Of a stretch of 64,000 nucleotides of DNA, positions 4,061-16,307 are shown one piece after another. The position numbers and the translations under genes are program-made. The stretch covers positions 2,294,001 through 2,358,000 of the forward strand of contig NZ_CP062976.1 in the NCBI RefSeq assembly GCF_014898075.1. Direction: 5' to 3'. Position 1 is the first letter of the stretch, and every line of letters begins with the position of its first letter. The stretch is from Neisseria yangbaofengii (GTDB taxonomy: Bacteria; Pseudomonadota; Gammaproteobacteria; Burkholderiales; Neisseriaceae). The notes beneath the pieces are model-generated. The model was not told the DNA's origin. It saw only the letters and a program-made list of their open reading frames with translations, and did not search any database.

Positions 4061-4091
4061 TCTTTCCTTTTATAGCTGTTTGAAATAAAAA

Positions 4092-4197
4092 TATAGTGGA
4101 TTCACTTTAAAATAGGACAAGGCGGTGAGCCGAAGACAGTATAGATAATACGGCCAGGCGAACCAACGCCGTACTATTTTAAAGTAGATTCACTATA
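4092..4197. mobile_element. Correia-like miniature inverted-repeat element (106 bp)
   Basis: Both ends read inward as TATAGTG(G/A)AT followed by ACTTTAAAATAG, giving imperfect terminal inverted repeats of about 25 bp around a GC-richer centre. The end TATAGTGGATT and the TA at each border fit the Correia repeat family of Neisseria. It marks the left edge of the bacteriocin island. A second element with related ends (16329-16466) marks the right edge. Confidence 0.75.
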
Positions 4198-4370
4198 ATA
4201 CAGCGTTGCCGACTCCCTTATGTACTGGGTGTACACGGCGGTCATCGTCGGCGCCTTGCTTTATTTTTATTTTAAACCGTTATATTTCAAAACAGCACAA
4301 ACGGATAGCCGTCTTTTGAGTTTTCCGGTTCATAACGCAGAATTTTTTGTGAATTGTTCGGTCGAAACGT
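4198..4370. other. Gap between the Correia-like element and tolC
   Basis: 173 bp, no gene. It holds a GC-rich, partly self-complementary stretch at about 4200-4260 and the sequence downstream of the leftward tolC stop. Nothing further recognised. Confidence 0.4.
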
Positions 4371-5687
4371 TTAAAACAATACCGAATTCATGTGATTGAC
4401 ACGCTCCTCACTATCCAGCACACCCGCATGTTGCAGCAATTGCAAATACGCTTGTGCATAAGCATAATGTGCTTCCGCCAATTTTTGCGCGGCCTCCGCC
4501 ACTGCCTGTTGCGCCTGTGTTTCTTCCAGATTATTACGCACGCCTACCTGACGGCCTATGCGCGTTGCTTCCAGCTTGGCTTGATTGCTTTCCAGCAGCC
4601 TTTGCTGTGCTTCGGTCTGCATGCGTCCGCCCCGCGTATTTTCGTAAGCCTGTCTGACCGCCAGTTTGGTATTGCGTTCGGCGGCGGTGAGCAAATCCCT
4701 GTTTTGCAACTCGCGTGAGGCCGCTTCGCGGATACGGCTGGAAATGTGCCCGCCCGTAAACAAGGGCACGCTCAGTTGAACGGTGAGCGTCGATCCTTTG
4801 CTGCGGTATTTCATATCGCCCATGCCGCCACCGTAGTTATAGGTATTGTGGTTATCCTGATAACCGCCCGACAAGGTGACTGTCGGCCAGCGTCCGCTTT
4901 TGGCCTCTTTTACCGCTTCGGCGGCATTTTCTAATGTTTTGCGCTGCAATGCCCAATCCGGGTTATTCGCCTCGGCCAGAGCCTGCCAATCCTGTTCTTT
5001 CGTACCGGCCAGTAAATCGACAGGCATGCGGTTGCGTTTTATCGGGCTGATGCGGGCAGGATCAAGGCCGGTCAGGTTGGCCAACGTATTGTTGGCAACA
5101 ATGAGCTGGTTGTAGGTATCCACTTCTTTGGCCAAAGCCGCATCAAAACCGGCCTCGGCTTCTTTGGTATCCAAAATAGTGGCCGCCCCTTGCTTGAACA
5201 TCTCCTGCGCACGCTGATACTGCTGCGAATAGGCGGCTTTTTCTTCCCTTATCGCCTCAAGTTTGTCGCGGTTAAGCAAAACATTGAAATAAGCCTTGGC
5301 CACATCCATCCTCAATTTGCCTTCATTTCCGGCCAAACGCAAGTCAGCCATTTCTTCGGCGAGCTTACCCTGCTTGTATTGCGAAAAACGGCTCTTATCA
5401 AATAAAACCTGCTGAGCCTGCACATTCCAACCGACCGAGCGGGTGTTGGAAGAAAGCGATTCAGGCTGCGTCTGATAAATTCCGTTGGCCGTAATATGCG
5501 GCAAAAGCTGCGCCCGTGCCTGATGCTTTTTCTCCGCATCTGCATCACGCTCGTTTTTTGCGGCGGAAAAATCGGCGGAATACTTCAACGCCGCTTCCCA
5601 AGCATCTTTCAAGGTAAACGCCCCAACGGCGGGCGACAATAAAGAAACCGACACAAACACCAGCGGCAATCGTTTTAATTTCGACAC
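4371..5687 (-). CDS. TolC-family outer-membrane export channel
   Basis: 438 aa with a signal peptide (cleavage likely after SPAVGA) and the two-fold repeated alpha-helical TolC/OEP architecture. Motifs such as NVQAQQVLFD and QLSVPLFTGG mark the two strand-helix repeats. It would supply the outer-membrane duct for the adaptor and C39 ABC exporter at 12925-16307, with which it shares the island. It points away from the first precursor gene (6088) across a 400-bp divergent gap. The start is a GTG: the upstream ATG present in the truncated second copy (8178) is ATA here. It is not the only reasonable start, but none is better. Confidence 0.88.
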   Translation of the reverse strand: MSKLKRLPLVFVSVSLLSPAVGAFTLKDAWEAALKYSADFSAAKNERDADAEKKHQARAQLLPHITANGIYQTQPESLSSNTRSVGWNVQAQQVLFDKSRFSQYKQGKLAEEMADLRLAGNEGKLRMDVAKAYFNVLLNRDKLEAIREEKAAYSQQYQRAQEMFKQGAATILDTKEAEAGFDAALAKEVDTYNQLIVANNTLANLTGLDPARISPIKRNRMPVDLLAGTKEQDWQALAEANNPDWALQRKTLENAAEAVKEAKSGRWPTVTLSGGYQDNHNTYNYGGGMGDMKYRSKGSTLTVQLSVPLFTGGHISSRIREAASRELQNRDLLTAAERNTKLAVRQAYENTRGGRMQTEAQQRLLESNQAKLEATRIGRQVGVRNNLEETQAQQAVAEAAQKLAEAHYAYAQAYLQLLQHAGVLDSEERVNHMNSVLF

Positions 5688-6087
5688 GGCACATATCTCA
5701 AATCAAATTAAACACCTTCCTTAGTGGCGAATTATTAGATTTAGTTTTTAATCTACCCAAATCATGCGGATTCAATGCCATACGGGTTAACGAAGACAAA
5801 CCCTTCTTTACTTTATAAAAATAATTATCAAAATTATTTACATGAAAATGTAATTGGCCGTTGTCCTAAATTGACTTGTGACAAGGTTAAAAACCAAGCA
5901 GCATTAATCTATTTATGAAAATAAAATTTTGAATATGCATTTAAGGTAAATAGATTTTAATCAAAGTTTTCAAAAATATTCTGAAAACCGGTAAACAAAA
6001 TTAAGAAATCACACACCAACATTGTACTAATGCTGTAAAGCAGTATTGTTGAAAGATTGATTATTTGATTTTTTTAAGGAGTACGAA
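5688..6087. promoter_or_regulatory. Divergent control region between tolC and the first precursor gene
   Basis: 400 bp, very AT-rich and without a gene. It contains a 6-4-6 palindrome TTACATGAAAATGTAA at 5838-5853 (a candidate operator) and a small TGCT/AGCA hairpin near 6030-6045. A T7 run precedes TAAGGAG just upstream of the ATG at 6088. The whole stretch is duplicated at about 8171-8570 with the palindrome intact. Promoter hexamers are not clear enough to place. Confidence 0.5.
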
Positions 6088-6279
6088 ATGAAACCTTTGA
6101 AAGAACATGAGTTGCAGCAAGTGGCCGGCGGCTACAATTGGGGTGACTTCAAAGCCGACTGGAAGGCATTCAAGCAAGATGCACAAGACTGGTGGAAAGC
6201 CGTCGACAACGGTCTGGCCGAAGGTGACCGCATCAGCACTATTTGGAAAAACGCCCGCGATGCGGTACGGAATAACTAA
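6088..6279 (+). CDS. Double-glycine leader bacteriocin/microcin precursor, copy 1
   Basis: 63 aa. The leader MKPLKEHELQQVAGG (15 aa) has the ELxxVxGG signature recognised by C39 peptidases. The predicted 48-aa core begins YNWGDFKADW, is rich in Trp, Asp and Lys, and looks like an amphipathic helix rather than a glycine zipper. A strong Shine-Dalgarno (AAGGAG) lies 8 bases before the ATG. The exporter/protease at 14211 should cleave after GG and secrete the core. The copy at 8571 differs by one residue (Asp20 to Val). Antimicrobial activity is inferred from architecture only; a signalling peptide is an alternative. Confidence 0.85.
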   Translation: MKPLKEHELQQVAGGYNWGDFKADWKAFKQDAQDWWKAVDNGLAEGDRISTIWKNARDAVRNN

Positions 6280-6288
6280 GACATCGAT

Positions 6289-6358
6289 TTGATTACTGAT
6301 GGCGAATCATTGTATGTTTACTTAACAAATTTGGAAAGCGGCATGTTGGATTCTATAG
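6289..6358. repeat. Segment repeated in inverted orientation at 10660-10731
   Basis: About 70 bp downstream of the first precursor gene. One frame reads LITDGESLYVYLTNLESGML; the inverted partner at 10660-10731 reads LITDGKSLHAYLTNLERGML. Conservation at protein level suggests a fragment of a former gene that I do not recognise. Confidence 0.65.
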
Positions 6359-6385
6359 TTTAGTCCGACTACTGTGTTCCGAAGC

Positions 6386-6456
6386 GGGGAGTTTTCCCCA
6401 CAATGTAGCGACGTAGATTGTTGCTGTTTTTACTTTGCTTTTAATTTTTTTAAGGA
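6386..6456 (+). repeat. Intergenic module: short GC hairpin plus conserved TGT(G/A)GC(A/G)ACGT tract (copy 1)
   Basis: A GGGGA/TCCCC hairpin (6386-6399) is followed by TGTAGCGACGTAGATTG and a T-rich run up to the Shine-Dalgarno of the next precursor. Related modules occur at 9614-9689 (GGGG/CCCC hairpin, TGTGGCAACGTGATTG) and 10256-10295. The placement suggests a shared 5' leader or attenuator for precursor genes, or a recombination seam. Confidence 0.5.
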
Positions 6457-6464
6457 GACTGATT

Positions 6465-6719
6465 ATGCAGACTTTGACTTTGCAAAACGATTTCGGCCGT
6501 GAATTGACCATGGATGAATTGGAGATGATTGCAGGCGGTGCTTGGAGCTGGGGTGATTTTGGTAAATCCACTGTAGGCGGTGCTGTAGGCGGTGCTGCAG
6601 GCGGCGCAGTTACTGGTTCATTTGCTGGTGGAGTAGGTGCTTTGCCTGGGGCAGGCATCGGTGCGCTTGCTGGTGCTGCTAGTGGCGCAGCCACCTATTT
6701 GGCCGTCGGATGGTGGTAA
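6465..6719 (+). CDS. Double-glycine leader bacteriocin precursor, glycine-zipper type
   Basis: 84 aa from the ATG at 6465, preceded by AAGGAG; upstream in-frame starts lack a ribosome site. The leader MQTLTLQNDFGRELTMDELEMIAGG is 25 aa. The core (59 aa) starts AWSWGDFG and is dominated by Gly and Ala with repeated GxxxG spacing, as in membrane-inserting class II bacteriocins. It follows the 6088 precursor by 185 bp and is followed by a hairpin and a candidate immunity gene (6830). Confidence 0.87.
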   Translation: MQTLTLQNDFGRELTMDELEMIAGGAWSWGDFGKSTVGGAVGGAAGGAVTGSFAGGVGALPGAGIGALAGAASGAATYLAVGWW

Positions 6720-6736
6720 GGTAATCCATCTTTAAG

Positions 6737-6772
6737 GTGTTGGAGCAGCAGAATTTGTGTTGACTCCAACAC
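6737..6772 (+). terminator. Hairpin after the 6465 precursor
   Basis: Perfect 9-bp stem GTGTTGGAG/CTCCAACAC with an 18-base loop, followed by AT-rich sequence without a clean T-run. It could partly terminate transcription or protect the precursor mRNA. Confidence 0.55.
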
Positions 6773-6829
6773 ATTAATTATTAATTAGGTTATTTAATTT
6801 AAAGTTCTATTACCTTAGAAAGGACTACT

Positions 6830-6979
6830 ATGAAAAATATAGTTATGTACATTGTATTTTTTGCTGTTTGCTCAATAATTCTTTATCTTTTTAAAATATC
6901 TTGGATAGAAATTGCTTTAACCTCTATTATCGCCACCATCATATATGCGATAGTAATTAAAAAATTTTGGATTCAATGA
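6830..6979 (+). CDS. 49-aa two-helix membrane protein, candidate immunity protein
   Basis: ATG at 6830 with GAAAGGA 7-8 bases upstream. The product starts MKNIVMYIVFFAVCSIILYL, has two predicted membrane helices (about residues 4-21 and 25-43) and a basic tail (VIKKFWIQ). Position directly behind a precursor, tiny size and membrane nature fit an immunity protein for the 6465 or 6088 peptide. No homologue recognised. Confidence 0.6.
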   Translation: MKNIVMYIVFFAVCSIILYLFKISWIEIALTSIIATIIYAIVIKKFWIQ

Positions 6980-7100
6980 AAATATACATCCCAATGACTA
7001 TAAAACTATGATTAAATTGAAAAAAGAATAATACTAAATGGATTAATATATCATTTGTTAATTTTAGCTGAAGAACTATTTTGCACTACAAAAAATTACT

Positions 7101-7811
7101 GGAACTGACGTAGATTAGCAGTTAGGTTACACTCAAAAAATGAAGATAACCCATTGCAACACAGTAAATCTACACAGCGAAAGTTGCTTCGTTTTTTTTG
7201 TGTTAGAAGTTACTGCTCATTCAGTAGCGGATATACTCGGTATCCAATCTAATTCCGCTATGTTTTTTTACCGCAAAATCCGTCAAGTGATTGCCTGCTA
7301 TTTGGCACTTCAAGCAGACGAAGTTTTTGACGGCTCTATTGAGCCGGACGAAAGCTATTTTGGCGGACAACGCAAGGGTAAACTCGGTCGTGGTGCAGCC
7401 GGTAAAGCGGCTGTTTTTGGTATTTTAAAACGCAATGGTAAGGTCTATACTGTTGTGGTTGAAAACACCAAACAAGATACTTTACTACCTGTTATTAAAA
7501 GAAAAATCATGCCTGATAGTATTGTTTATACGGACTGTTACAAAAGCTGTGATGTGCTTGATGTGAGCGAATTTATTCATCATCGCATCAATCATTCACA
7601 GATTTTGCAGAGCGTCAAAACCGCATTAACGGCATTGAGAATTTCCGGAACCAAGCAAAACGTGTTCTGAGAAAACACAACGGAATTGACCGTAAATCTT
7701 TTCCCTTATTTTTGAAAGAATGTGTGTTCGTTTTAATTTTGGCACACCAAAAGAGCAGTTAAAAATTCTGCGAATTTGGTGTGGTGTTTAGGGCTAATCT
7801 ACGTCAGCCCC
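7101..7811 (+). mobile_element. IS1016-type insertion sequence (IS1595 family), degenerate
   Basis: 711 bp bounded by imperfect inverted repeats: GGAACTGACGTAGATTAGC on the left against GGGGCTGACGTAGATTAGC read inward from the right. It contains a frameshifted transposase. The flanking 8 bp (AAATTACT left, CTTTAATT right) do not match, so the element no longer sits in a simple insertion site. The right end abuts an inverted copy of sequence from 12.1-12.25 kb, which implies rearrangement at this IS. Confidence 0.87.
7140..7791 (+). pseudogene. IS1016-type DDE transposase, frameshifted
   Basis: Recognisable blocks are DESYFGGQRKGKLGRGAAGK and KIMPDSIVYTDCYKS. The reading frame is lost near 7608: the continuation (NRINGIENFRNQAKRVLRKH) is in another frame. 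It shifts again near 7723, where RFNFGTPKEQLKILRIWC resumes and stops at 7791. The N-terminal ~20 codons also look out of frame between two compensating indels. Transposase inactive. Confidence 0.88.
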
Positions 7812-7812
7812 C

Positions 7813-7942
7813 TTTAATTATTAATCAATCAAAATATCAATAACTTCCAATAACTTAATTTCACGATATCTTTTTTATTGTGTTCTAATAAAATTTCTAT
7901 CTGCTTTTCCTAAAAAAATGTCAAATTCATTCTGCTTTAATA
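7813..7942 (-). repeat. Inverted copy of 12123-12254
   Basis: About 130 bp that, reverse-complemented, match the last codons and 3' flank of the immunity-like gene at 11896-12135 with only a few differences. It begins exactly at the IS1016 right end and stops at the start of the truncated tolC copy (7944), so both borders are recombination junctions. Confidence 0.88.
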
Positions 7943-7943
7943 A

Positions 7944-8178
7944 CAGGCTGCGTCTGATAAATCCCGTTGGCCGTAATCTGCGGCAAAAGCTGCGCCCGTG
8001 CCTGATGCTTTTTCTCCGCATCTGCATCACGCTCGTTTCTTGCGGCGGAAAAATCGGCGGAATACTTCAACGCCGCTTCCCAAGCATCTTTCAAGGTAAA
8101 CGCCCCAACGGCGGGCGACAATAAAGAAACCGACACAAACACCAGCGGCAATCGTTTTAATTTCGACACGGCACACAT
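7944..8178 (-). pseudogene. Truncated second copy of tolC (5' end only)
   Basis: About 75 codons match the start of the intact tolC, including the signal peptide, then the frame runs into unrelated sequence (VIKAE, stop at 7927). Here an ATG (MCAVSKLKRL) is present where the intact gene has ATA. It cannot form a channel. It is part of the segmental duplication that brought in a second precursor gene. Confidence 0.93.
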
Positions 8179-8570
8179 CTCAAATCAAATTAAACACCTT
8201 CCTTAGTGGCGAATTATTAGATTTAGTTTTTAATCTACCCAAATCATGCGGATTCAATGCTATATGGGTTAACGAAAACAAACCTTTCTTTACTTCATAA
8301 AAATAATTATCAAAATTATTTACATGAAAATGTAATTGGCCGTTGTCCTAAATTGACTTGTGGCGAGGTTAAAAACCAAGCAGCATTAATCTGTTTATGA
8401 AAATAAAATTTTGAATATGCATTTAAGGTAAATAGATTTTAATCAAAGTTTTCAAAAATATTCTGAAAACCGGTAAACAAAATTAAGAAATCACACACCA
8501 ACATTGTACTAATGCTGTAAAGCAGTATTGTTGAAAGATTGATTATTTGATTTTTTTTAAGGAGTACGAA

Positions 8571-8762
8571 ATGAAACCTTTGAAAGAACATGAGTTGCAG
8601 CAAGTGGCCGGCGGCTACAATTGGGGTGTCTTCAAAGCCGACTGGAAGGCATTCAAGCAAGATGCACAAGACTGGTGGAAAGCCGTCGACAACGGTCTGG
8701 CCGAAGGTGACCGTATCAGCACTATTTGGAAAAACGCCCGCGATGCGGTGCGGAATAATTAA
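8571..8762 (+). CDS. Double-glycine leader bacteriocin/microcin precursor, copy 2
   Basis: 63 aa, same leader as copy 1 and identical core except Val at residue 20 in place of Asp (core residue 5). The T-run before AAGGAG is one base longer (T8 against T7). It is followed by a different downstream gene, a two-helix membrane protein at 8831, so the duplicated precursor has acquired a new neighbour. Both copies look expressible. Confidence 0.84.
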   Translation: MKPLKEHELQQVAGGYNWGVFKADWKAFKQDAQDWWKAVDNGLAEGDRISTIWKNARDAVRNN

Positions 8763-8830
8763 GTGTAAAACAAATTTCCCACTGGTAAATTTGATGAAAC
8801 CCAAAGGATTTGGAAAAGATTAGAAAACAC

Positions 8831-9025
8831 ATGCTGAATATGTTGCTGAAAATCTGTTTATGTATCTTTATCGCATTCTGTGTACTGACCCCTATAGTGT
8901 GGCTTTATGAAACCTTCACAAAGGGTTTTTCATGGAATGAAACGGCTGTTTACGCCAAATCTTTTGTAATATTTGTAGCCTTGGGTCTTTTGAGTAATTG
9001 GGCGATAAATAAGTATTTCAATTAA
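8831..9025 (+). CDS. 64-aa two-helix membrane protein, candidate immunity protein
   Basis: Starts MLNMLLKICLCIFIAFCVL. Two hydrophobic helices (about residues 3-27 and 42-60) flank a polar loop (ETFTKGFSWNETAVY). An in-frame TTG at 8810 is too close to AGGA to be preferred; the ATG at 8831 has GGAAAAG about 13 bases upstream, so the start is uncertain. It sits between two precursors. The C-terminal pattern (SNWAINKYFN) resembles the NKWFNKR end of the 10980 protein, suggesting a diverged family. Confidence 0.6.
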   Translation: MLNMLLKICLCIFIAFCVLTPIVWLYETFTKGFSWNETAVYAKSFVIFVALGLLSNWAINKYFN

Positions 9026-9068
9026 ACAATTTTTATTTTTTAAATTTATAAATTTAAAGGAGTAGATC

Positions 9069-9317
9069 ATGTACGAAATCACTTTGAATGAATTGGATCT
9101 TGTTTCCGGTGGCGGCAGATGGGTAGACGCAATAGAAAGTGCCGCAAATGGTGCCGGTGCGGGAGCTGCGGCCGGCGGCCTTGCCGGAGCAGGACTTGGC
9201 CTTTTAGGCGGGCCGTTCGCACCGGTGACCGTTACTGGAGGTGCTGCAGGTGGCGCGTTAATCGGTGGAGGCATTGGTGCCATCGGAGGTTTTGCCGCCG
9301 GCTGGAACGACTGGTAA
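9069..9317 (+). CDS. Double-glycine leader bacteriocin precursor, glycine-rich
   Basis: 82 aa, AAAGGAG before the ATG. Leader MYEITLNELDLVSGG (15 aa). The 67-aa core starts GRWVDAIES and then alternates Gly/Ala in GxxxG and AxxxG patterns before ending AAGWNDW. Such a composition favours helix-helix packing in membranes. It lies 43 bp behind the 8831 membrane protein and is followed by a hairpin. Confidence 0.86.
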   Translation: MYEITLNELDLVSGGGRWVDAIESAANGAGAGAAAGGLAGAGLGLLGGPFAPVTVTGGAAGGALIGGGIGAIGGFAAGWNDW

Positions 9318-9370
9318 ACCGTTTGTGCGGTAAAACGGTTTGCCGTATTGATGACATTTAAATCATGAGG

Positions 9371-9396
9371 CTTTCAACATTCAGAATGTTGGAAAG
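9371..9396 (+). terminator. Hairpin terminator after the 9069 precursor
   Basis: Near-perfect stem CTTTCAACATT/AATGTTGGAAAG with a short loop, followed 8 bases later by a T-run (GGGTTTTTTTAT). Confidence 0.7.
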
Positions 9397-9706
9397 TAAT
9401 ATGGGTTTTTTTATATTGTTTTCTTATCTATAACATAACCACCATTACCCTATTTACATCAAGTTGATTGTATTAACCATTATGGTCATGTGTTAGGTTG
9501 GGAAAATTTATTTGTGTTACGACGGGTGAATTTTTCCTTGAATGGAAAAGCTTTTTGAAAAATTCAGAAGGCAGGATGTTGAATCTTATAGTCCGGCACC
9601 CTGCATTCTAAATCGGGGGAGACCCCAATAGTGTGGCAACGTGATTGATTGCTATTTTTTAATTTGTTTTTAATTTTTATGTACTTATACAAGAAGGAAT
9701 ATGATC
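9397..9706. other. Intergenic region carrying hairpin/TGTGGCAACGTGA module (copy 2)
   Basis: 310 bp without a gene. The segment 9570-9600 (GGATGTTGAATCTTATAG) echoes 6342-6358. A GGGG/CCCC hairpin at 9614-9626 and TGTGGCAACGTGATTG at 9632-9647 repeat the arrangement before the 6465 precursor, so this looks like a copied upstream region for the 9707 precursor. Confidence 0.5.
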
Positions 9707-9877
9707 ATGAAAGAATTGAATCAAATGGAGTTGGATAATGTTGCAGGCGGTGCTTTCTGGGCTCCCATTGTTGCGGCATATGGAGCTAAATATGTGTTGG
9801 GAGCATTAGGAGGATCTGCGGCGACTGGCTTGGCTGCTGGGGTTGCGATAGGAGTTAGCCGTCAAAGCAGACGTTAA
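9707..9877 (+). CDS. Double-glycine leader bacteriocin precursor (56 aa)
   Basis: The leader MKELNQMELDNVAGG is a textbook ELxxVxGG leader. The core AFWAPIVAAYGAKYVLGALG... is 41 aa, hydrophobic, Gly/Ala rich, with a basic end (VSRQSRR). Of two in-frame ATGs (9701, 9707) the second has proper spacing (8 bases) from AAGGA. It is followed at 67 bp by a 31-aa single-helix peptide gene. Confidence 0.85.
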   Translation: MKELNQMELDNVAGGAFWAPIVAAYGAKYVLGALGGSAATGLAAGVAIGVSRQSRR

Positions 9878-9944
9878 ACAACGAATTTGCTTTATTTGGA
9901 ATTTCGAGTATACATTAAATTTTCCAAAATATATGGTCTAATTT

Positions 9945-10040
9945 ATGGGTACAGATAAATTATTGATTACGGTTATCTTAGTCTCTGCTGCTGTTGGCTT
10001 GCTGATAGGAGTTGCAATAGGACTAAGTAGTCTTAGATAA
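9945..10040 (+). CDS. 31-aa single-helix peptide, island accessory family
   Basis: MGTDKLLITVILVSAAVGLL then a short tail (IGVAIGLSSLR). One membrane helix, no GG leader. Its relative at 11227 (NEKDKTLLLVILIGSAIIG...GIAVGLNSLK) aligns throughout, so the ORF is conserved as protein and likely real despite its size and weak ribosome site. Both copies sit between a precursor or immunity-like gene and the next precursor. It could be immunity, a chaperone or a partner peptide. Confidence 0.6.
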   Translation: MGTDKLLITVILVSAAVGLLIGVAIGLSSLR

Positions 10041-10075
10041 CTAATTTTTAAGAGATTTTATTAAAGGAGTTAATT

Positions 10076-10243
10076 ATGAGCAGTAGCATGATTGAATTGG
10101 AATTATGTGAGTTGGAAAATGTACAGGGCGGAGCTCTCCCGGCGATTCTCTTTGTTCCCGCAGCTAAGTTGATTTATGCCTCTGTCGGCACTGCTGCTGG
10201 TGCAGGTGTTGTTGGTTATGGCCTTGCCCGGATATTTGGATAA
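10076..10243 (+). CDS. Double-glycine leader bacteriocin precursor (55 aa)
   Basis: AAAGGAG lies 6 bases before the ATG. Leader MSSSMIELELCELENVQGG (19 aa) with an unusual Cys. The 36-aa core starts ALPAILFVPAAKLIYASVG, hydrophobic, ending in GYGLARIFG. It follows the 31-aa peptide gene by 35 bp, so 9707, 9945 and 10076 may be one transcript. Confidence 0.83.
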   Translation: MSSSMIELELCELENVQGGALPAILFVPAAKLIYASVGTAAGAGVVGYGLARIFG

Positions 10244-10255
10244 TCTCAATTATGT

Positions 10256-10295
10256 TGTGGCAACGTGAGTTGTTACTGTTTTTAATTTTTTGTTA
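10256..10295 (+). repeat. TGTGGCAACGTGA module (copy 3)
   Basis: TGTGGCAACGTGAGTTG followed by a T-rich run, matching 9632 and 6404. Here it precedes a headless core fragment rather than an intact precursor. Confidence 0.5.
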
Positions 10296-10296
10296 A

Positions 10297-10368
10297 TCTT
10301 TAGCAACTTTTTCTTATTTTGGAGGAGTAGCTATTGGTGATGGTTTAATTGAAGGTGGATATTTCTGA
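10297..10368 (+). pseudogene. Remnant of a bacteriocin core without leader
   Basis: A 23-codon frame ending SYFGGVAIGDGLIEGGYF reads like the C-terminal part of a glycine-rich core. A stop codon lies directly upstream, there is no start or leader, and the repeated upstream module joins it abruptly. I infer deletion of the leader. The alternative is chance coding. Confidence 0.4.
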
Positions 10369-10452
10369 AAAAATTTTAGAAATCTCTTATTTTTAAATAG
10401 TCGGGAACGTAGTTTCTGAAATGGAACTGCGTTTCCAAAAAATAGGGTTTTG

Positions 10453-10641
10453 ATGATGGAAATTATTGCAATCGGTATTATTTTAATAGTTGCAACAATT
10501 TTTTTGATCCAAAAAGGTTTAGTCAAACCCGATGACAATGCTGATTGTATTAAAAAGAATCCTGTATTCTTTATTGCTAGTTTTATTTCTATTTTAATAG
10601 GAGTGACTTTCTTGTTAATAATAATTTTTCGAAAACTATAA
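10453..10641 (+). CDS. 62-aa two-helix membrane protein, candidate immunity protein
   Basis: MMEIIAIGIILIVATIFLIQ, a charged middle (KPDDNADCIKKN), a second helix (PVFFIASFISILIGVTFLLI) and a basic end (FRKL). The ribosome site is weak. Position behind the core remnant suggests it once protected against that lost peptide. No family recognised. Confidence 0.58.
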   Translation: MMEIIAIGIILIVATIFLIQKGLVKPDDNADCIKKNPVFFIASFISILIGVTFLLIIIFRKL

Positions 10642-10659
10642 AGCTTTAGTTGAACTAAA

Positions 10660-10731
10660 CTATTAGGATTCAGCATCCCTCTTTCCAAATTTGTTAAGTA
10701 AGCATGTAATGATTTGCCATCAGTAATCAGA
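10660..10731 (-). repeat. Inverted copy of 6289-6358
   Basis: Read leftward it encodes LITDGKSLHAYLTNLERGML, matching the fragment behind the first precursor. It demonstrates inversion or copying of intergenic pieces within the island. Confidence 0.7.
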
Positions 10732-10743
10732 GTTTTGGTATAA

Positions 10744-10905
10744 AACGGCCTTGAAAATTTCAATGGATTTGCTCTGTCTTTGTATTTTTTCCTGCTATTG
10801 GAGCATATTGATTCTGTTCAATATTTTTATTTTTTAATTTTTGGCGCATCAGGATTTTTAACATTGCTTTTTTCTGGTTATTTAAAAAATATTTCCGATA
10901 ATTAA
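10744..10905 (+). other. Open frame without start codon, possible decayed membrane protein
   Basis: 53 sense codons between stops, containing two hydrophobic stretches (FALSLYFFLLLEHI and YFYFLIFGASGFLTLLFSGY). No ATG or GTG is present, so it is at best the tail of a former immunity-like gene. The rest of 10642-10979 holds no gene. Confidence 0.25.
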
Positions 10906-10979
10906 ATTTTATTAAACGGAAATTAGTATACATCATGTGAAAATTTTGATTGATTTATTTCATAGGATTTCTTTTAACC

Positions 10980-11219
10980 ATGTCCGCACGAAAGTTTCCA
11001 TTGCTTACCGAAAGTATCTTTTTTGTCACAATGCTTTTCCTGGACTATTTTTTTATTTATTCAAATTTTTCAGAAACACTGAAGATGTCCGCCCTTCAGA
11101 CTTTGATTTTTGTACCGCTTAATTTTCTTTTAAACAAATGGTTCAATAAGAGGGTATTTGAGAAAAGGAATAACCAGATATACCATATAGTTGATTATTG
11201 TTATGATTTTTTTGATTAG
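10980..11219 (+). CDS. 79-aa membrane protein, candidate immunity protein (family with 12258 remnant)
   Basis: Start MSARKFPLLTESIFF at the ATG 10980 (AGGA 12 bases upstream; a TTG at 10950 would extend it). Two helices, then LQTLIFVPLNFLLNKWFNKR. The decayed gene at 12258-12431 aligns from LLT.SIFF through FNKR, which supports a real protein family. The tail after FEKRNNQ is longer than in the relative. The gene ends 7 bp before the 34-aa peptide at 11227, suggesting co-translation. Confidence 0.62.
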   Translation: MSARKFPLLTESIFFVTMLFLDYFFIYSNFSETLKMSALQTLIFVPLNFLLNKWFNKRVFEKRNNQIYHIVDYCYDFFD

Positions 11220-11226
11220 AGTAAGT

Positions 11227-11331
11227 ATGATGAATGAGAAGGATAAAACCCTGCTGCTCGTTATCCTTATCGGCAGTGCCATTATCGGTTTCCTGTACGG
11301 CATTGCGGTTGGTTTGAACAGTTTGAAGTAA
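11227..11331 (+). CDS. 34-aa single-helix peptide, paralogue of 9945
   Basis: MMNEKDKTLLLVILIGSAII then GFLYGIAVGLNSLK. Aligns along its length with the 9945 peptide: both have DK.LL, VIL.(S/G).A, G.A.GL.SL and a basic end. Single membrane helix, function unknown. Tightly coupled to 10980. Confidence 0.6.
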   Translation: MMNEKDKTLLLVILIGSAIIGFLYGIAVGLNSLK

Positions 11332-11607
11332 TGGGGGCAAACCGTTTTCAGACGGCCTGAATACCTTTGCAAAACCTCAGATTTGAACGGAATTCGAAAT
11401 GACAGAAGCGAAGAAATCTTAGACATATCATTAATATGGATAAGATTTCGAGCAATACATCATGAAGAAATGCACTAAAAGTGCAGGAACAAAATAAGGG
11501 CTTCACTTTTGAATATAGGGGCAATCATGCTTTTAAGCTCAAACAGCAGGCCGTCTGAAAACTTTAGGCGGGCTTCTATTATTTTTAAAAAATAGGGAAT
11601 GAAAAAT
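11332..11607. other. Gap with DUS copies before the last precursor
   Basis: 276 bp, no gene. It carries two uptake-sequence copies (near 11350 and 11557), the only clear ones between 5.7 and 12.9 kb. The ACCTTTGCAAAACCTCAG stretch resembles common Neisseria intergenic filler. Confidence 0.4.
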
Positions 11608-11790
11608 ATGAAAGAAATTGAACAGGTCACAGGTGGCTGGAGTTGGAGAGGTGCCATCTTTGGTGGAGCTGCGGGAGGTGCAGTGGGAGGTGTAGCCGGC
11701 GCAGGTGTCGGACTAGGTATTGGATTTATTGGAGGAGGTCTATTCGGTAAGGATGAACATCAAATGAGAGGTGCTAGTGGAAGCTGGTAA
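11608..11790 (+). CDS. Double-glycine leader bacteriocin precursor, glycine-zipper type
   Basis: The leader is MKEIEQVTGG from the ATG at 11608 (AGGGA 9 bases upstream) or MKNMKEIEQVTGG from 11599, which directly abuts the ribosome site. Both are short for the class. The core begins WSWRGAIFGGAAGGAVGG and is extremely Gly-rich, ending GKDEHQMRGASGSW. The WSW start parallels AWSWG in the 6465 precursor. A strong hairpin and a membrane-protein gene follow. Confidence 0.83.
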   Translation: MKEIEQVTGGWSWRGAIFGGAAGGAVGGVAGAGVGLGIGFIGGGLFGKDEHQMRGASGSW

Positions 11791-11813
11791 AACTAAGCGG
11801 TAATTTACTAGCT

Positions 11814-11852
11814 TGGATAAGCTATATCGAAATTTTTCTTATAGCTTATCCA
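11814..11852 (+). terminator. Hairpin after the 11608 precursor
   Basis: Perfect 13-bp stem TGGATAAGCTATA/TATAGCTTATCCA with a 13-base T-rich loop. Only a weak T-run follows, so partial termination or mRNA stabilisation is possible. Confidence 0.65.
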
Positions 11853-11895
11853 TTTAATTAAATTTTAATAATAATTATTAAAAAGGATGGATGAG

Positions 11896-12135
11896 ATGAC
11901 AAGTAAGTCAATAATAATACTATACACTATAGTATTCTTTATACTTTTTTCAACTTTTTATTTTTTATCTAAACACACTTTTATTAATTCCTTATTGTTG
12001 AGTTTTTCTATTTCAGTATGCAGTGCGGCAACTGTTATTTTTGCTAATAAATATTTAAAAAAAATGAGGTTGATTAAGATTCTCCTAATCGCTAAAGCAT
12101 TTTATTCGTTAAACTATTTCATATTATTAAAGTAG
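11896..12135 (+). CDS. 79-aa hydrophobic membrane protein, candidate immunity protein
   Basis: ATG at 11896 has AAAGGA at 8 bases; the in-frame ATG at 11887 overlaps that site. Starts MTSKSIIILYTIVFFILF. Three hydrophobic stretches with basic loops (NKYLKKMRLIK), which would place it in the inner membrane. It follows the 11608 precursor and hairpin. Its 3' end and flank are copied in inverted orientation at 7813-7942. Confidence 0.62.
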   Translation: MTSKSIIILYTIVFFILFSTFYFLSKHTFINSLLLSFSISVCSAATVIFANKYLKKMRLIKILLIAKAFYSLNYFILLK

Positions 12136-12254
12136 AATGAATTTGACATTTTTTTAAGGAAAGCAGATAGAAATTTTATTAGAACACAATAAAAAAGATA
12201 TTGTGAAATTAAGTTATTGGAAGTTATTAATATTTTGATTGATTAATAATTAAA
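12123..12254 (+). repeat. Source-like copy of the inverted segment at 7813-7942
   Basis: Covers the last codons of the 11896 gene and 119 bp of AT-rich flank. It ends exactly where the truncated immunity-like gene starts (12258), so this end is itself a junction. Confidence 0.87.
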
Positions 12255-12257
12255 TAA

Positions 12258-12431
12258 TTGCTTACAGGAAGCATCTTTTTTGCCGTGATACTTTTCCTAC
12301 AGTATTTGTTTATTAGCCCTGAACTTAAAGAAGCCTTGAAGGTTTCGCTCTTGCAGACGCTGATTTTCGTGCCGGTTAATTTCTTTTTAAACAAACGCTT
12401 CAACAAGCGGATATTTGAAGAAAAGAAATAA
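12258..12431 (+). pseudogene. 5'-truncated relative of the 10980 membrane protein
   Basis: 57 codons from LLTGSIFFAVILFLQY to FNKRIFEEKK. It aligns with 10980-11219 but lacks the MSARKFP start, and a stop precedes it. Only a TTG could initiate. The break coincides with the end of the 12123-12254 repeat, so truncation came from the rearrangement. Confidence 0.7.
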
Positions 12432-12496
12432 ACCTGTGCTGTCTAGCCCTCTTTATGGAAAACTCAGATAAACGAAAAAGTAAACGAGAAAATAAA

Positions 12497-12622
12497 ATGC
12501 TGTTGAAGCTATAGTTATTATTAGTTTGGTTATCATATGAATTGAATAAAGCCTTACCGCTTATCTTAAGTGGTATTGGCGCAGTATATGTTATTTTTCA
12601 AAATTTAACAAAAAAAACGTAA
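12497..12622 (+). pseudogene. Small membrane-protein gene with in-frame TAG
   Basis: ATG at 12497 reads MLLKL, a TAG, then LLLVWLSYELNKALPLILSG and a tail ending NLTKKT before TAA. If the stop is a mutation this was a 41-aa two-helix protein like the other immunity candidates. Low certainty because of size. Confidence 0.4.
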
Positions 12623-12924
12623 CATCGCCGAACTAAACGAGAATGATTATGTCTCAATCAAAGCTCTCAACTATTGAGCTTTAGTTTAGAGATGATATAT
12701 CCCTAACTAGAGACTCACAAATTGACATAGTATTTATATTTATAGGTGTAAACAATGAAAGAACTAAATTTATAGGCAGGCAAATTAAAAATGTTTGCTG
12801 GATATTGTATGCAACCTTATGTCCATACAAAATTTTCAAGCAAGGGGGTATTGATTTTTGATACTCCCTTTTGTTCTTTATCATAAAAACCAGTAATTCA
12901 AATCACTCAGTTTATTGAATTTAT
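12623..12924. other. Region before the exporter genes with degenerate leader-like reading
   Basis: 302 bp with no intact gene. At 12754 a frame reads MKELNL, TAG, AGKLKMFAG, which faintly resembles a ruined double-glycine leader. A terminator-like hairpin sits at 12844-12876. Promoter for 12925 probably lies in the last 50 bases, not resolvable by eye. Confidence 0.35.
12844..12876 (+). terminator. Terminator upstream of the adaptor gene
   Basis: GGGGGTAT/ATACTCCC stem with a T-rich loop followed by CTTTTGTTCTTT. It separates the precursor array from the transport genes. Confidence 0.65.
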
Positions 12925-14214
12925 ATGACCGACCAAAAACCTTTTTTCCGTCCCGAAGTGTTCGAGGCGAAGAAAAACCGTTGGACGGGGCATGTTGTGT
13001 TGTCCCGTCCGTTTTCTTTTGTCTTTTTAACCGGTTGTGCGGCAGCCGGAGCCGCGACGCTGATTGCGTTTGCCTTTTTCGGCAGCTATACGCGTAAAAC
13101 CACGGTAGACGGGCAATTGCTGCCCGCTGCGGGTTTGGTGCGCGTGTATGCGCCGGATACCGGTTTTGTGGCGTCGAAAAAAGTTTCAGACGGCCAATAC
13201 GTCAATGAGGGGGATGAATTGCTGACGCTTTCGATGCCGCGCTACAACGGCAGCGGTGATGTGCGGGCAAGATTGGTACAGGAAGCGGAAATGCGGAAAA
13301 AGATGCTGCTGGACGAAATCGGCCAAAAGAAAATGATGCAGCAGGGCGAGGAAAATACGCTGAAAAGCAATATAGGGAAGCTGGAAGACCAGTTGGCCGA
13401 TGTGCGCAACCAATTGCGCGGGCAGCGGCAACGGGTAGCCCTGGCCAAACAGGTGATTGAAAAATACCGGCCATTGCTGAAGCAGGGCTTTATTTCCGAG
13501 CAGCAGATGATTGGTTACGAAAACGAGCATTTGGATCAAGTGACCCAACTGGGCAGTCTGCAGCGCGAAGAGGCTTCCATCGGGCGCGAATTGGCGCAGC
13601 AGCGGCAGGCTTTGGCCGACTTGCCGGAAAAGCAGAAATCGGAATTGAGCCAACTTAACCGCAATGTGTCGGAATTGACGCAGGAAACGCTGAATCTGGA
13701 CATGCAGCAGGAGCAATCGGTGCGCGCGAGCAAATCCGGCTATGTGAGCATGGCTGATGTCGAAAACGGCCAGCAGGTTACGCCGTCTACTTTGTTATTA
13801 AGTATTGTGCCGGAAAAGGCGGATTTGGTAGCAAGCCTTTATGTGCCGAGCAAGGCAGCCGGCTTTATTAAGCCGAGCGACAAAGTCGTACTGCGCTACC
13901 AAGCCTACCCTTATGAAAAATTCGGTCATGCCGGCGGAAAAATCATGTCGATAGCGAAAACGGCTGTCGGCAGACAGGAGCTGACTTCATTGGGCAGAGC
14001 TGCTACAGGGGAGAACATTCAGCAACAAGCCCCCAACGAACCGGTTTATTTGGTCAGGGTAAAACTCGACAAGCAAACCATCAAGGTTTACGGTGAAGAG
14101 AAGCCTCTTCAGACGGGCATGGTATTGGAAGCGGATATCATGCACGAGCGCAAAAAGCTTTACGAATGGGTACTTGACCCGCTTTACACCATTACAGGAA
14201 AGCTGCATTCATGA
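12925..14214 (+). CDS. HlyD-family periplasmic adaptor (membrane fusion protein) for bacteriocin export
   Basis: 429 aa. Cytoplasmic N-terminus, one membrane helix at about residues 30-53, a lipoyl-type half-domain (VDGQLLPAAGLVRVYAPDTG), a long coiled coil (about 115-240, Gln/Glu rich) and the second lipoyl half (SKSGYVSMADVENGQQVTP). It links the ABC exporter encoded immediately downstream to TolC, as CvaA does for colicin V. The stop overlaps the start of the exporter gene by 4 bases (ATGA). It contains a DUS copy, unlike the precursor array, so it may be older in this genome. Confidence 0.93.
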   Translation: MTDQKPFFRPEVFEAKKNRWTGHVVLSRPFSFVFLTGCAAAGAATLIAFAFFGSYTRKTTVDGQLLPAAGLVRVYAPDTGFVASKKVSDGQYVNEGDELLTLSMPRYNGSGDVRARLVQEAEMRKKMLLDEIGQKKMMQQGEENTLKSNIGKLEDQLADVRNQLRGQRQRVALAKQVIEKYRPLLKQGFISEQQMIGYENEHLDQVTQLGSLQREEASIGRELAQQRQALADLPEKQKSELSQLNRNVSELTQETLNLDMQQEQSVRASKSGYVSMADVENGQQVTPSTLLLSIVPEKADLVASLYVPSKAAGFIKPSDKVVLRYQAYPYEKFGHAGGKIMSIAKTAVGRQELTSLGRAATGENIQQQAPNEPVYLVRVKLDKQTIKVYGEEKPLQTGMVLEADIMHERKKLYEWVLDPLYTITGKLHS

Positions 14215-16307
14215 ATTATTTGGAAAGAATCTCTTTCGGATTCGGCAAAAAATTGCCTGTCGTGCTGCAAACCGAAGTGGCCGAATGCGGCTTGGCCTGT
14301 CTCACGGCGGTGGCCGGTTATCACGGATACCATTCCGACCTGCGAACCATGCGACAACAGTATTCTTTGTCGCAAAAAGGCCTGACGATGGCCGATATCG
14401 TGCGCTTTGCCAATCATCTGAACCTGACTTCGCGTGCCTTGCGCCTGGATTTGGCCGACCTGCCTAACCTGCGCAAACCCTGCATCCTGCATTGGGATTT
14501 AAACCATTTTGTGGTCTTGAAAGAGACTTCTTCAGACGGCATTGTGATTATGGATCCGGCTGTCGGCAACCGTAAAATCCCGATGGAGGAAGTTTCACAG
14601 AAGTTTACCGGTATCGCGTTGGAGTTGTGGCCGAATTCGCGTTTTGAGAAAAAGGAAGCACGGCAAAAAGTCAGCATCTTATCGTTGCTTAAAGGCATTT
14701 CAGGCATCGGCTCTTCTCTGGCGCAAGTATTGATTCTGGCCTTTGCCTTGGAAATTTTCGGCTTGGTCAGCCCGTTTTTAATGCAGTGGGTCATCGACCA
14801 TGTAATTGTTTCGGCAGACCGCAACCTTTTGCTGACTTTGGTTTTGGGTTTCGGCCTGTTGATGATTTTGCAGCAGCTTACCGGCTTGCTGCAATCTTGG
14901 GTGAACATGCACCTGACCACTATGCTGAATGTGCAATGGAAAGCGAATATCTTCAAAAGACTGCTGGAACTGCCTGCCGACTATTTCTCCAAACGTCATT
15001 TGGGTGATGTGGTTTCCCGCTTCCAAGCGATTGACAATATTCAGGAAACCCTTACTTCCACGGCATTCAAATCCGTGTTGGGCGGCATCATGGCCATATT
15101 CACGCTGATCTTGATGTTTTACTACAGCGTGATTCTGACCATTGTCGTGTTAATCGCATTGTTGCTGTATATCATCATCCGCATTGCCGCCTATTACCCG
15201 TTGCGGCACGCCACCGAAGAAAACATTATCCACGAAGCCAAGCAGAATACCTATTTTATGGAAACCGTCCGCGGTATCCATACCGTGAAACTCTTTGAAA
15301 AAAACGAGCAACGGCATAATTCTTGGATGACCCTGTTTGTCGACACCGTCAACACCAATCTGACCACGCAGAAATTGGGTAATGTTTTCGATTTCGCCAA
15401 CAAGCTGCTTTTCGGTTTGGAAAGCATCATCATCGTTTATTTGGGCGCGACGCGCGTGTTGGACGGCGTATTCAGCGTCGGTGCACTGATGGCGTTTTGG
15501 GCATACCGGCAACAATTTGAAAACCGTGTCGCCGAATTGGTCGACCAATACATTAAAATTAGAATGCTCGGCCTGCATGCCGAACGGTTGGCCGACATCG
15601 TTTTGACCGAAACGGAAACGGAAACCGTTGAAGACAGCTACATCCCTGAAATTTCAGACGGCATCGATATAACCGTTGATAACGTATCGTTCAGATATTC
15701 GGAAAGCGAGCCCTACATCCTGCAAAACGTCAGCCTGCATATCAAGCAAGGGGAATCGGTAGCCTTTACCGGAAACTCCGGTTGCGGAAAATCTACGCTG
15801 ATGAACATTCTTATCGGCAACCTCAAACCGGAATCCGGCAATGTCACCGTCAACGGCCACGACATCCACAAACTTTCACCGCGCTTTATCCGCGGCCTCA
15901 GCGGCACGGTAACGCAGGACGATGTGCTTTTTGCCGGTTCGATTGCCGAAAACATCTGTTTTTTCGATGAAAATCCCGATATGGCCTTTATCGCACAATG
16001 TGCCGCCATGGCGATGATTCATGAAGATATCCTAAAAATGCCTATGGGTTATGAAACATTAATCGGCGACATGGGTAATGCGCTTTCGGGCGGACAAAAG
16101 CAGCGCATCATTATCGCCCGCGCACTCTACCGCAAACCGAAAATCCTGTTCTTAGACGAAGCCACCAGCAATTTGGATATTGAAAACGAACGTGCCATCA
16201 ACCATAACCTCAAAATGCTCAACATCACTAAAATCATGGTGGCACACCGTAAAGAAACCATCGAATCGGCAGATCGGGTAATCAACATGGGAGGATCACA
16301 AGCTTAA
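14211..16307 (+). CDS. Peptidase-containing ABC transporter (C39 domain) for double-glycine peptides
   Basis: 698 aa. The N-terminal C39 cysteine protease has Cys26 in QTEVAECGLAC, His99 in LNHFVVLKE and Asp115 in IVIMDPAVG, so the triad is complete. Six-helix membrane domain at about 155-430. The nucleotide-binding domain has Walker A GNSGCGKST, signature LSGGQKQR and Walker B ILFLDEATSNLD. It should cleave leaders after GG and export the cores. Same domain order as CvaB of the colicin V system. Runs as an operon with the adaptor. Confidence 0.96.
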   Translation: MNYLERISFGFGKKLPVVLQTEVAECGLACLTAVAGYHGYHSDLRTMRQQYSLSQKGLTMADIVRFANHLNLTSRALRLDLADLPNLRKPCILHWDLNHFVVLKETSSDGIVIMDPAVGNRKIPMEEVSQKFTGIALELWPNSRFEKKEARQKVSILSLLKGISGIGSSLAQVLILAFALEIFGLVSPFLMQWVIDHVIVSADRNLLLTLVLGFGLLMILQQLTGLLQSWVNMHLTTMLNVQWKANIFKRLLELPADYFSKRHLGDVVSRFQAIDNIQETLTSTAFKSVLGGIMAIFTLILMFYYSVILTIVVLIALLLYIIIRIAAYYPLRHATEENIIHEAKQNTYFMETVRGIHTVKLFEKNEQRHNSWMTLFVDTVNTNLTTQKLGNVFDFANKLLFGLESIIIVYLGATRVLDGVFSVGALMAFWAYRQQFENRVAELVDQYIKIRMLGLHAERLADIVLTETETETVEDSYIPEISDGIDITVDNVSFRYSESEPYILQNVSLHIKQGESVAFTGNSGCGKSTLMNILIGNLKPESGNVTVNGHDIHKLSPRFIRGLSGTVTQDDVLFAGSIAENICFFDENPDMAFIAQCAAMAMIHEDILKMPMGYETLIGDMGNALSGGQKQRIIIARALYRKPKILFLDEATSNLDIENERAINHNLKMLNITKIMVAHRKETIESADRVINMGGSQA

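Follow-up and report, generated by a model that had tools for sequence, protein, structure and literature searches.

A self-contained double-glycine peptide export island with its own TolC in Neisseria yangbaofengii, and related precursor genes scattered in Neisseria

We analyzed a 64,000-nucleotide stretch of the Neisseria yangbaofengii genome (hereafter the window), which corresponds to positions 2,294,001-2,358,000 of a host genome consisting of one 2.65-Mb contig. At window positions 4371-16307, it contains an island for small peptides with a double-glycine (GG) leader: seven GG-leader precursor genes lie within 7 kb and are bounded by a divergent tolC gene and by an adaptor gene paired with the gene for an ABC exporter carrying a C39 peptidase domain. 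The interpretation of this locus as a self-contained GG-peptide export island, TolC included, is well supported by its gene content and by its recurrence in related genomes. An earlier note made from the sequence had called it a bacteriocin island; the export island holds, and the bacteriocin role is plausible, suiting some members better than others. In the explanation that we consider likely, the island forms a mobile and self-contained module for type I secretion with cores resembling class II microcins, Gly-zipper toxins with adjacent immunity genes, turnover of cassettes, and additional substrates scattered over the chromosome.

The tolC-bracketed export module in Neisseria

The island begins with tolC on the minus strand, followed on the plus strand by the GG-leader and small membrane-protein genes and then by the adaptor and exporter genes. 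The tolC gene (4371-5687; GTG start; divergent from the cassettes) encodes an outer-membrane channel that scored 243.4 bits against TIGR01844 (cut-off, 225.15) and 195.8 bits against PF02321, and it is the sole full-length match in the window genome at an E-value of 0.001. The HlyD-type adaptor, a membrane fusion protein (12925-14214), scored 59.6 bits against PF13437 (HlyD_3; cut-off, 22.2), and the exporter (14211-16307) exceeded the cut-offs of PF03412, PF00664, and PF00005, with 122.9 bits for the C39 domain (PF03412). The predicted Cys26/His99/Asp115 triad is present in the exporter together with Q20, and all four residues are invariant in nine of nine homologous islands. Against TIGR03796, the model for NHLP bacteriocin exporters, the exporter reached 489.8 bits, below the cut-off of 853.3.

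We compared the window genome (G000) with other Neisseriaceae genomes, one per species, which are designated here by G numbers. Strong exporter matches (E-value of at most 1e-150) were found in 13 of 83 family genomes, all within Neisseria; one copy is a fragment (G031), one contains stops (G015), and the gene is open and full-length in eleven genomes. Ten of the 46 Neisseria genomes encode TolC relatives that are 57% or more identical, and in nine of the ten the tolC gene is divergent from the exporter gene and 2.9-8.5 kb from it. The tolC relative of G029 is located on another contig, and G020 has a TolC relative with 43% identity. The immediate neighbors distinguish six insertion points (G000, G021/G011, G022, G006/G041, G008, and G039/G035), and G000 and G008 have their wider neighborhood in common. 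Because the arrangement of tolC, cassettes, adaptor, and exporter recurs in nine genomes at six insertion points, we regard TolC as part of the module. The comparison across Neisseria that the earlier note had proposed thus bears out its claim of a self-contained exporter with a linked TolC. Among the islands, exporter identities were correlated with those of the adaptor (r = 0.94) and TolC (r = 0.81), and none of 5000 permutations reached either value; shared species history contributes to both correlations and could by itself produce the one with TolC.

The G008 island, together with one further gene, is inserted between the counterparts of the window genes at 22890 and 22956, which are 66 bases apart in the window and 7.7 kb apart in G008. 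The interval 22890-22956 is island-free, lies 6.6 kb beyond the window's own island, and is a clean empty counterpart of the G008 insertion site. The window's island is itself flanked by pgk (2816-3994) and gltX (17176-18570, minus strand), both named from reading of their proteins. We rejected pgk/gltX as an empty site for this island; the two genes are about 4-5 kb apart in several island-free genomes, but their relative orientation differs. The G+C content is low in the island (31-41% across 6-13 kb, compared with 43-57% for most of the window). The word GCCGTCTGAA, which we take to be the Neisseria uptake word, occurs 87 times in the whole window and 5 times within 4371-16307.

Precursor genes and cassette turnover

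All seven precursor genes predicted in the earlier note are open and encode 55-84 amino acids (aa) from ATG starts on the plus strand; in six of them the ribosome-binding site comprises 4 bases or more, and the gene at 11608 has AGG only. A regular expression for GG leaders, composed after the leaders had been seen and applied to window positions 5901-12900, found 7 frames; the average over 200 Markov copies was 0.28 (maximum, 3). Six of the GG-leader frames combine an ATG with a strong ribosome-binding site, a combination that was found in none of the 200 copies. The leaders of 6465 (ELEMIAGG) and 11608 (EIEQVTGG) deviate slightly from the proposed leader motif ELxxVxGG.

The number of genes stands, with the qualification that two of the seven are recent copies of one gene. 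Precursor 1 (6088-6279), the first gene past tolC, encodes a peptide with the core YNWG..., which we call the anchor peptide, and precursor 3 (8571-8762) is its second copy, with 62 of 63 residues the same. The two genes differ by three synonymous changes and one nonsynonymous change, and the duplication included the tolC 5' end and the intergenic region (segments of 300 and 212 nt with 99% and 98% identity, respectively; spacing, 2482-2483). At the junction are the remnant of an IS1595-type transposase (7140-7670, plus strand; partial PF12762 match, 62.3 bits) and a 131-nt inverted repeat, a rearrangement scar, in which 7813-7943 is an inverted copy of 12124-12254 with 96% identity. The truncated copy of the tolC 5' end occupies 7927-8178 on the minus strand (97% identity across tolC residues 1-75). 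As helices, the anchor cores are mildly amphipathic (4 to 49 of 1000 shuffles as high for five members).

The remaining precursors are more varied. Precursor 2 (6465-6719) has a Gly-rich core (AWSWG...GWW; 31% Gly), is followed by the gene for a 49-aa membrane protein, and shares 34 of 59 core residues with a GG peptide adjoining a gonococcal C39 exporter. Precursor 4 (9069-9317) has the Gly-zipper core GRW...WNDW and 60% identity to G021 6916. Precursor 5 (9707-9877) has the cationic core AFWAP... (net charge, +4) and a relative in G006, which is adjoined by relatives of precursor 6 (10076-10243; core ALPA...; net charge, +2). Precursor 7 (11608-11790), recognized by the leader expression, has the Gly-zipper core WSWR.... 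In TIGR03949, the class IIb lactobin A/cerein 7B family (cut-off, 21.5), precursors 5, 2, and 6 scored 26.8, 25.1, and 20.4 bits, respectively, and the other four had no match at E-values up to 1. We considered and rejected a phage origin; PHROG matches were weak only, and in phage and viral searches covering precursor 4 and the anchor family, precursor 4 had no match in the phage collection at an E-value of 0.01 and no confirmed relative of the anchor family was found in viral contigs.

The anchor family is kept in seven islands (anchor-type islands), in which we counted the GG genes between tolC and the adaptor. The counts were 7 in G000, 8 in G021, 16 in G011, 4 in G022, 8 in G006, 5 in G041, and 3 in G008, for a total of 51; 7 of the 51 have leaders that miss the regular expression and were recognized by eye, G021 8099 has a TTG start, and one G022 match was left out as a chance frame. 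A gene number that had looked unusual from the window sequence is therefore ordinary within this group (3-16 per island). In G039 and G035 the tolC-linked islands belong to another type, each with a JmjC gene and two genes with GG or GA leaders (118-125 aa); a 28-aa TTG frame in G035 was left out. By the same rule, 12 of 14 scanned non-Neisseria loci (from 80 loci in all) contain one or two plausible GG/GA genes and two contain none, two further frames having looked like chance.

The anchor gene is first past tolC in six of the seven islands and fifth in G006, whereas the non-anchor cores are patchy among islands, many of those in G011 and G021 being short and rich in Trp and Pro. This constancy favors an alternative that restricts toxin function to some Gly-zipper members and assigns the short peptides, above all the anchor, a signaling (pheromone) or accessory role. 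The low ratio of nonsynonymous to synonymous changes (dN/dS, omega) in the anchor gene (0.07-0.12 in four comparisons; 0.27 between the window and G021) points the same way, as do the pheromone roles that have been proposed for meningococcal GG peptides (PMC2784325). We regard this alternative as improbable, since no sensor or regulator gene was recognized among the reading frames of the island and dozens of unrelated cores are hard to reconcile with signaling alone. The anchor peptide, which has no constant membrane-protein neighbor, nevertheless falls outside our main explanation and may be an accessory or signal peptide. A common upstream operator was also considered; an alignment of the tolC/anchor intergenic regions revealed no convincing conservation by eye.

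Precursor genes scattered over the chromosomes

A leader profile was built from 39 leaders of the seven anchor-type genomes (37 in islands and two just beyond the G006 exporter), and only matches outside the islands are independent of it because it was built from island leaders. Among the 46 Neisseria genomes, the profile gave 128 matches at E-values up to 0.1, compared with one for the reversed profile. The anchor-type genomes account for 113 matches (G000, 13; G006, 12; G008, 33; G011, 17; G021, 9; G022, 15; G041, 14) and eight of the other 39 genomes for the remaining 15. Of the 77 matches that fall outside the islands, 65 belong to the seven genomes and 12 to five further genomes. We verified 57 of these by requiring an ATG, the GG, and a ribosome-binding site that was 4 bases or longer, a count that includes the truncated genes G000 602951 and G043 621856. 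The seven genomes hold 48 verified genes (G008, 25; G022, 12; G041, 4; G000, 3; G011, 2; G006 and G021, 1 each) and other genomes hold nine (G043, 5; G030, 2; G026 and G020, 1 each). The flanks of the 57 genes have a G+C content of 30-52%, and at the six loci with frames listed the scattered genes are placed between longer reading frames. No upstream regulatory motif was accepted for the scattered genes; the words 5' of 46 of them were merely AT-rich.

In the window genome, intact scattered precursors are located at 1,867,698 and 717,573, each with a membrane-protein gene directly 3' of it; one scattered precursor is truncated, and four further matches failed verification, some of them plainly decayed. 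A frame similar by eye to the island transposase remnant is found near the gene at 1,867,698 (L178, 240-818). In G008, one GG gene is present three times at positions 2452-5227 and 13309-13766 of the locus at 526001-542000 (L166), each time with the same product (core EDWIPAYFGFYPRRTDSIFRQEERD); the copies stand at the head of GG-gene groups, which suggests recent copying.

Because related precursors are scattered over the chromosome, the island represents just a fraction of the repertoire. The island exporter may also serve the scattered genes, as suggested by the leader that they have in common with the island precursors and by their co-occurrence with the island. G043 has no close exporter match and is not a clean exporter-negative genome, since its assembly is 85% complete and also lacks pgk and gltX matches.

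Selection on the precursors

The dN/dS ratio was estimated for nine related precursor pairs from two genome groups (G006/G041 and G011/G021/G022). The pooled ratio was 0.21 for whole precursors, 0.16 for the leader, and 0.23 for the core, with single pairs ranging from 0.06 to 0.80. More distant comparisons with the window genes gave 0.27 for the anchor, 0.40 for 9069, 0.53 for 9707, and 0.33 for 10076. Across all these estimates, several dS values exceeded 1 and were saturated. Free drift of the cores, which had been named beforehand as refuting the prediction, was not observed over the nine pairs, one near-neutral pair being taken up below. As selection was mostly purifying, most of the pairable cores appear to be maintained genes; most of the 51 island genes have no close partner.

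These values bear on the possibility that the island is a decaying relic. Its transposase remnant, tolC fragment, and degenerate gene at 12258, together with truncated scattered genes, are what decay would leave behind, but the exporter, adaptor, TolC, and all seven precursors are open and related cores elsewhere are mostly under purifying selection, so that we consider a relic very improbable. The few differences between the two anchor copies carry little weight in this respect. A probably decayed precursor is found at 12755-12775, where the ATG of a GG-type leader (MKELNL) is followed by a stop after six codons.

A 46-nt repeat is located 5' of 6465 and of 9707 and also at 10256. We rejected it as a regulatory RNA or shared leader element; it folds no better than shuffled sequences (z, -1.5 to 0.3), has no Rfam match at gathering scores, and its consensus pattern shows no excess in the genome (10, compared with 13 for the reversed control). 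We treat it as a recombination footprint.

Small membrane proteins and two kinds of core

Four to five small membrane proteins had been expected in the island. Strict rules for start and hydropathy recovered three and relaxed rules about eight, and the strict counts are minima since the strict rule overlooks weaker membrane proteins. The three are a 49-aa protein (6830-6979; ATG with an AAGGA site; hydropathy peak, 2.4), which is an immunity candidate for precursor 2; a 62-aa protein (10453-10641; ATG with AGG; peak, 2.9); and a 79-aa protein (11896-12135; ATG with an AAGGA site; peak, 2.5), which is a candidate for precursor 7. Another 79-aa membrane protein is encoded at 10980-11219; its DNA at 11000-11170 is 73% identical to 12257-12427, where a probably degenerate paralogue with a TTG start is located (12258-12431). 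The membrane-protein gene at 8831-9025, an immunity candidate, stands between the anchor gene 8571 and the Gly-zipper gene 9069, and its partner could be either of them because the homologues of all three keep this order in G021; most other anchor genes have no such neighbor. Relatives of 9707, 9945, and 10076 are clustered in G006 too, in a different order.

For 99 precursors (48 scattered and 51 in islands), we recorded whether a small membrane-protein gene lies on the same strand within 250 bases. Such neighbors were found for 15 of the 99 precursors, compared with 2 of 99 on the antisense strand. They were commoner among the 29 precursors with at least 28% Gly plus Ala (10 of 29) than among the rest (5 of 70; Fisher p = 0.0013); the antisense control gave 1 of 29 and 1 of 70, respectively. 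The contrast was robust, with p below 0.01 at thresholds from 20 to 35% and after removal of identical cores, and it was present within islands (5 of 11 compared with 2 of 40; p = 0.003). Trp plus Pro made up 15% in the low-Gly/Ala group and 7% in the Gly/Ala-rich group. The bacteriocin interpretation therefore suits the Gly/Ala-rich class best, as membrane-protein neighbors are commoner there and most short cores have none.

Two leaderless single-helix proteins are encoded among the cassettes. The 31-aa protein at 9945-10040 matches the core of precursor 5 (SAAxGLxxGVAIGxS over 15 residues), and the two genes share a DNA match of about 40 nt; none of 2000 shuffles was as good in either comparison. 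The 33-aa product of G006 7355 likewise matches its neighbor 6625 over 25 residues (0 of 2000 shuffles). Against the other Gly-rich window cores (6465, 9069, and 11608), 45 to 87 of 2000 shuffles were as good as 9945, but 11608 matched G006 7355 at 5 of 2000, so that the test separates the families incompletely. The second helix protein of the island (11227-11331; 34 aa) resembles the cores of the precursor-5 family, including 9707, at the protein level; at the DNA level there is no likeness to 9707 (1968 of 2000 shuffles did as well). Common descent of helix and toxin is likely and falls short of proof, because shuffling loses the hydrophobic pattern. We propose that the leaderless helix of 9945 could act as a decoy that confers immunity. 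Leaderless helix proteins of 32 aa also adjoin GG genes in G008 (MKELTVERLLYWAGVIAVIGFIGG..., L166 near 529373) and G022 (MKDINVNRLLTWAGIIAVLAFIGG..., L172 near 273399), and these are perhaps a second case like 9945.

Comparison with known systems

In the cvi-cvaC pair of microcin MccV, the immunity gene is located upstream of the toxin gene, and the TolC used by MccV is the host's own and unlinked. The streptococcal blp locus has variable bacteriocin/immunity cassettes beside one GG-peptide exporter; it is Gram-positive, has no outer-membrane channel, and is pheromone-controlled. The immunity candidate and toxin at 8831/9069 follow the cvi-cvaC order; unlike MccV, the Neisseria systems have many precursors per exporter as well as scattered precursors. 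Class II microcins of the MccV type are like the island in having a GG leader, a C39-ABC exporter, an adaptor, TolC, and, as a candidate in the island, an immunity gene beside the toxin (PMC9746304). The island shares with that class precursors under 10 kDa with a GG leader, a C39-ABC protein with its catalytic residues, and a membrane fusion protein plus TolC.

The closest proven GG bacteriocin system is mcbABCI on the Moraxella catarrhalis plasmid pLQ510, which resembles the island in its exporter (55% identity to McbB), adaptor (about 39% identity), GG leader, and small immunity gene, the counterparts of which in the island are candidates. Inactivation of mcbA, mcbB, or mcbC is reported to have abolished killing (PMC2761928), and together with the closeness of the exporter to McbB we count this in favor of a bacteriocin function. 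The Moraxella locus differs in that it has a single bacteriocin and a single immunity gene, that tolC was not matched in the 8.8 kb of pLQ510 examined, and that its core type, which ends in KKW, is absent from the window island and has one similar scattered counterpart in G008. It also carries a split JmjC reading frame, unlike the window island; this relative lies upstream of mcbA in two frames (L222, 39-797 and 812-1120; pieces 60% and 48% identical). In its main text, the 2009 paper on the locus uses neither "cupin" nor "JmjC" (PMC2761928).

JmjC relatives are present in eight of the 46 Neisseria genomes, with an exporter close by in six. About 23 kb ahead of the window, its genome encodes another C39 exporter (66% identical) in a locus designated L084 (2256001-2276000; 4713-5867, 6096-11132, and 13371-15455). 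Four GG-type peptides are encoded there, three of which have tails like SGNNYGG or DGTNY, alongside a JmjC_2/ROXA-like gene and two partial copies of it. The tail may be a motif for hydroxylation or for a receptor. The window island does not belong to this JmjC-associated C39 type; the three JmjC matches of the genome are all at 2,260,713-2,264,770, outside the island, and none of the seven island cores has an SGNxY or DGTxY tail. At 5274-10085 of L223, in the gonococcal record NZ_CP119140.1, a C39 exporter with an open frame (69% identical) is encoded together with an adaptor and two peptides with GG/GA leaders; neither tolC nor JmjC was matched within 18 kb. Judged by its size, this record is a chromosome, though listed as a plasmid.

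Meningococcal strain 8013 is described as having C39 units NMV_0104-0106 and NMV_1948-1949 and five candidate GG peptides (NeMeSys; PMC2784325). Compared by description only, these are alike in comprising Neisseria GG peptides with small Gly-rich cores, a C39-ABC protein, an adaptor, and a TolC-like protein, and differ in that there are two units and the TolC-like NMV_0625 is numbered away from both. According to a review, deletion of NMB0097 or NMB0098 abolished meningococcal growth inhibition (PMC9263626), which we count for the bacteriocin interpretation.

The gonococcal nap island, as described, is likewise an AT-rich, horizontally acquired Neisseria island with small GG peptides (PMC11798529). 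The reported effect of these peptides, promotion of autolysis, raises the alternative that the island peptides do not kill rivals and instead act on the producer's own population, promoting its lysis and the release of DNA in a genus that is naturally transformable. That most cores have no immunity-type neighbor agrees with this. The nap island is nevertheless described with a C39 peptidase and a FapF-like channel and without a C39-ABC/adaptor/TolC set (PMC11798529), whereas the window island has a fused C39-ABC exporter and TolC and no C39 peptidase with FapF-type channel beside its GG peptides. In addition, the diversity of cores and the toxin/membrane-protein neighbors would suit competition better, and the exporter is close to McbB; we thus consider action on the own population unlikely.

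Proposed function of the island

We propose that precursors with a GG leader of 10-25 residues are made in the cytoplasm, that the C39 domain of the exporter would cleave after the GG, and that the core would exit via the exporter, the adaptor, and the island's own TolC. The cores would be unmodified peptides resembling class II microcins. For the Gly-zipper members (6465, 9069, 9707 with 10076, and 11608), the most likely action would be insertion in the inner membrane of sensitive relatives, and the producer would be protected by adjacent small membrane proteins (6830, 8831, 9945 and 11227, 10453, and 11896). Cassettes would be gained, duplicated, and lost between the fixed ends formed by tolC and the adaptor/exporter pair. 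The secreted peptides are probably antibacterial weapons with a fast-changing set of members. Conserved groupings count in favor of this proposal, namely the membrane-protein/GRW pair in G000 and G021 and the AFWAP/ALPA/short-helix group in G000 and G006. Also in its favor are the two cores above the TIGR03949 cut-off, the excess of membrane-protein neighbors on the sense strand, and a scattered G008 peptide that resembles McbC (1 of 1000 shuffles as good). The same G008 peptide has 28 of 57 residues in common with another gonococcal GG peptide.

Several observations weigh against a bacteriocin function. The best PF10439 (Bacteriocin_IIc; cut-off, 27.1) scores were 27.0 for 6465, 0.1 bit short, and 24.6 for 9707, and 6088 and 8571 had no match to it. 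The antisense strand of the island region yields two small membrane proteins under the strict rules, so the count of such proteins is weak evidence by itself. Only 15 of the 99 precursors have a membrane-protein neighbor, the proportion being lowest for Gly/Ala-poor cores; the Gly/Ala contrast was not significant among scattered genes (5 of 18 compared with 3 of 30; p = 0.13), and by strict rules the islands of G011 (16 GG genes), G041, and G008 show no such neighbor. The core of the pair G006 9155/G041 8035 is near neutral (omega, 0.96). The likeness of the scattered G008 peptide to McbC is weak (14 of 60 identities). Finally, the gonococcal Naps, which are GG peptides, are reported to have shown no antibacterial activity (PMC11798529).

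A broader interpretation, which we advance only tentatively, is that one mobile C39/TolC module might process dozens of precursors (33 leader matches in G008), encoded as single intergenic cassettes and as arrays, with near-fixed leaders and freely replaced cores. These would include very short Trp/Pro-rich peptides, from 13 residues upward, and two-peptide toxins whose immunity proteins would be leaderless copies of the toxin helix (9707/9945; G006 6625/7355) that stay in the membrane and block pore assembly. We know of no bacterial counterpart of the very short Trp/Pro-rich peptides. In searches of the open-licence literature, none of the titles and abstract openings listed mentioned a tolC-bracketed multi-peptide island or scattered Neisseria GG precursors, which is weak evidence of novelty because subscription journals were not covered.

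Judged from its sequence, the island is real and functional-looking and its parts are of known kinds; it stands out as a variant by the bracketing of the module, by how many likely substrates there are for one exporter, and by the scattering of these substrates. The locus and its scattered partners provide concrete genes in less-studied species, including Neisseria wadsworthii. The short Trp/Pro-rich cores are candidate peptide leads. An exporter with dozens of exchangeable substrates would be a natural model for the range of substrates that C39 exporters take. Such a system would also show how toxin/immunity pairs evolve in a naturally transformable genus.

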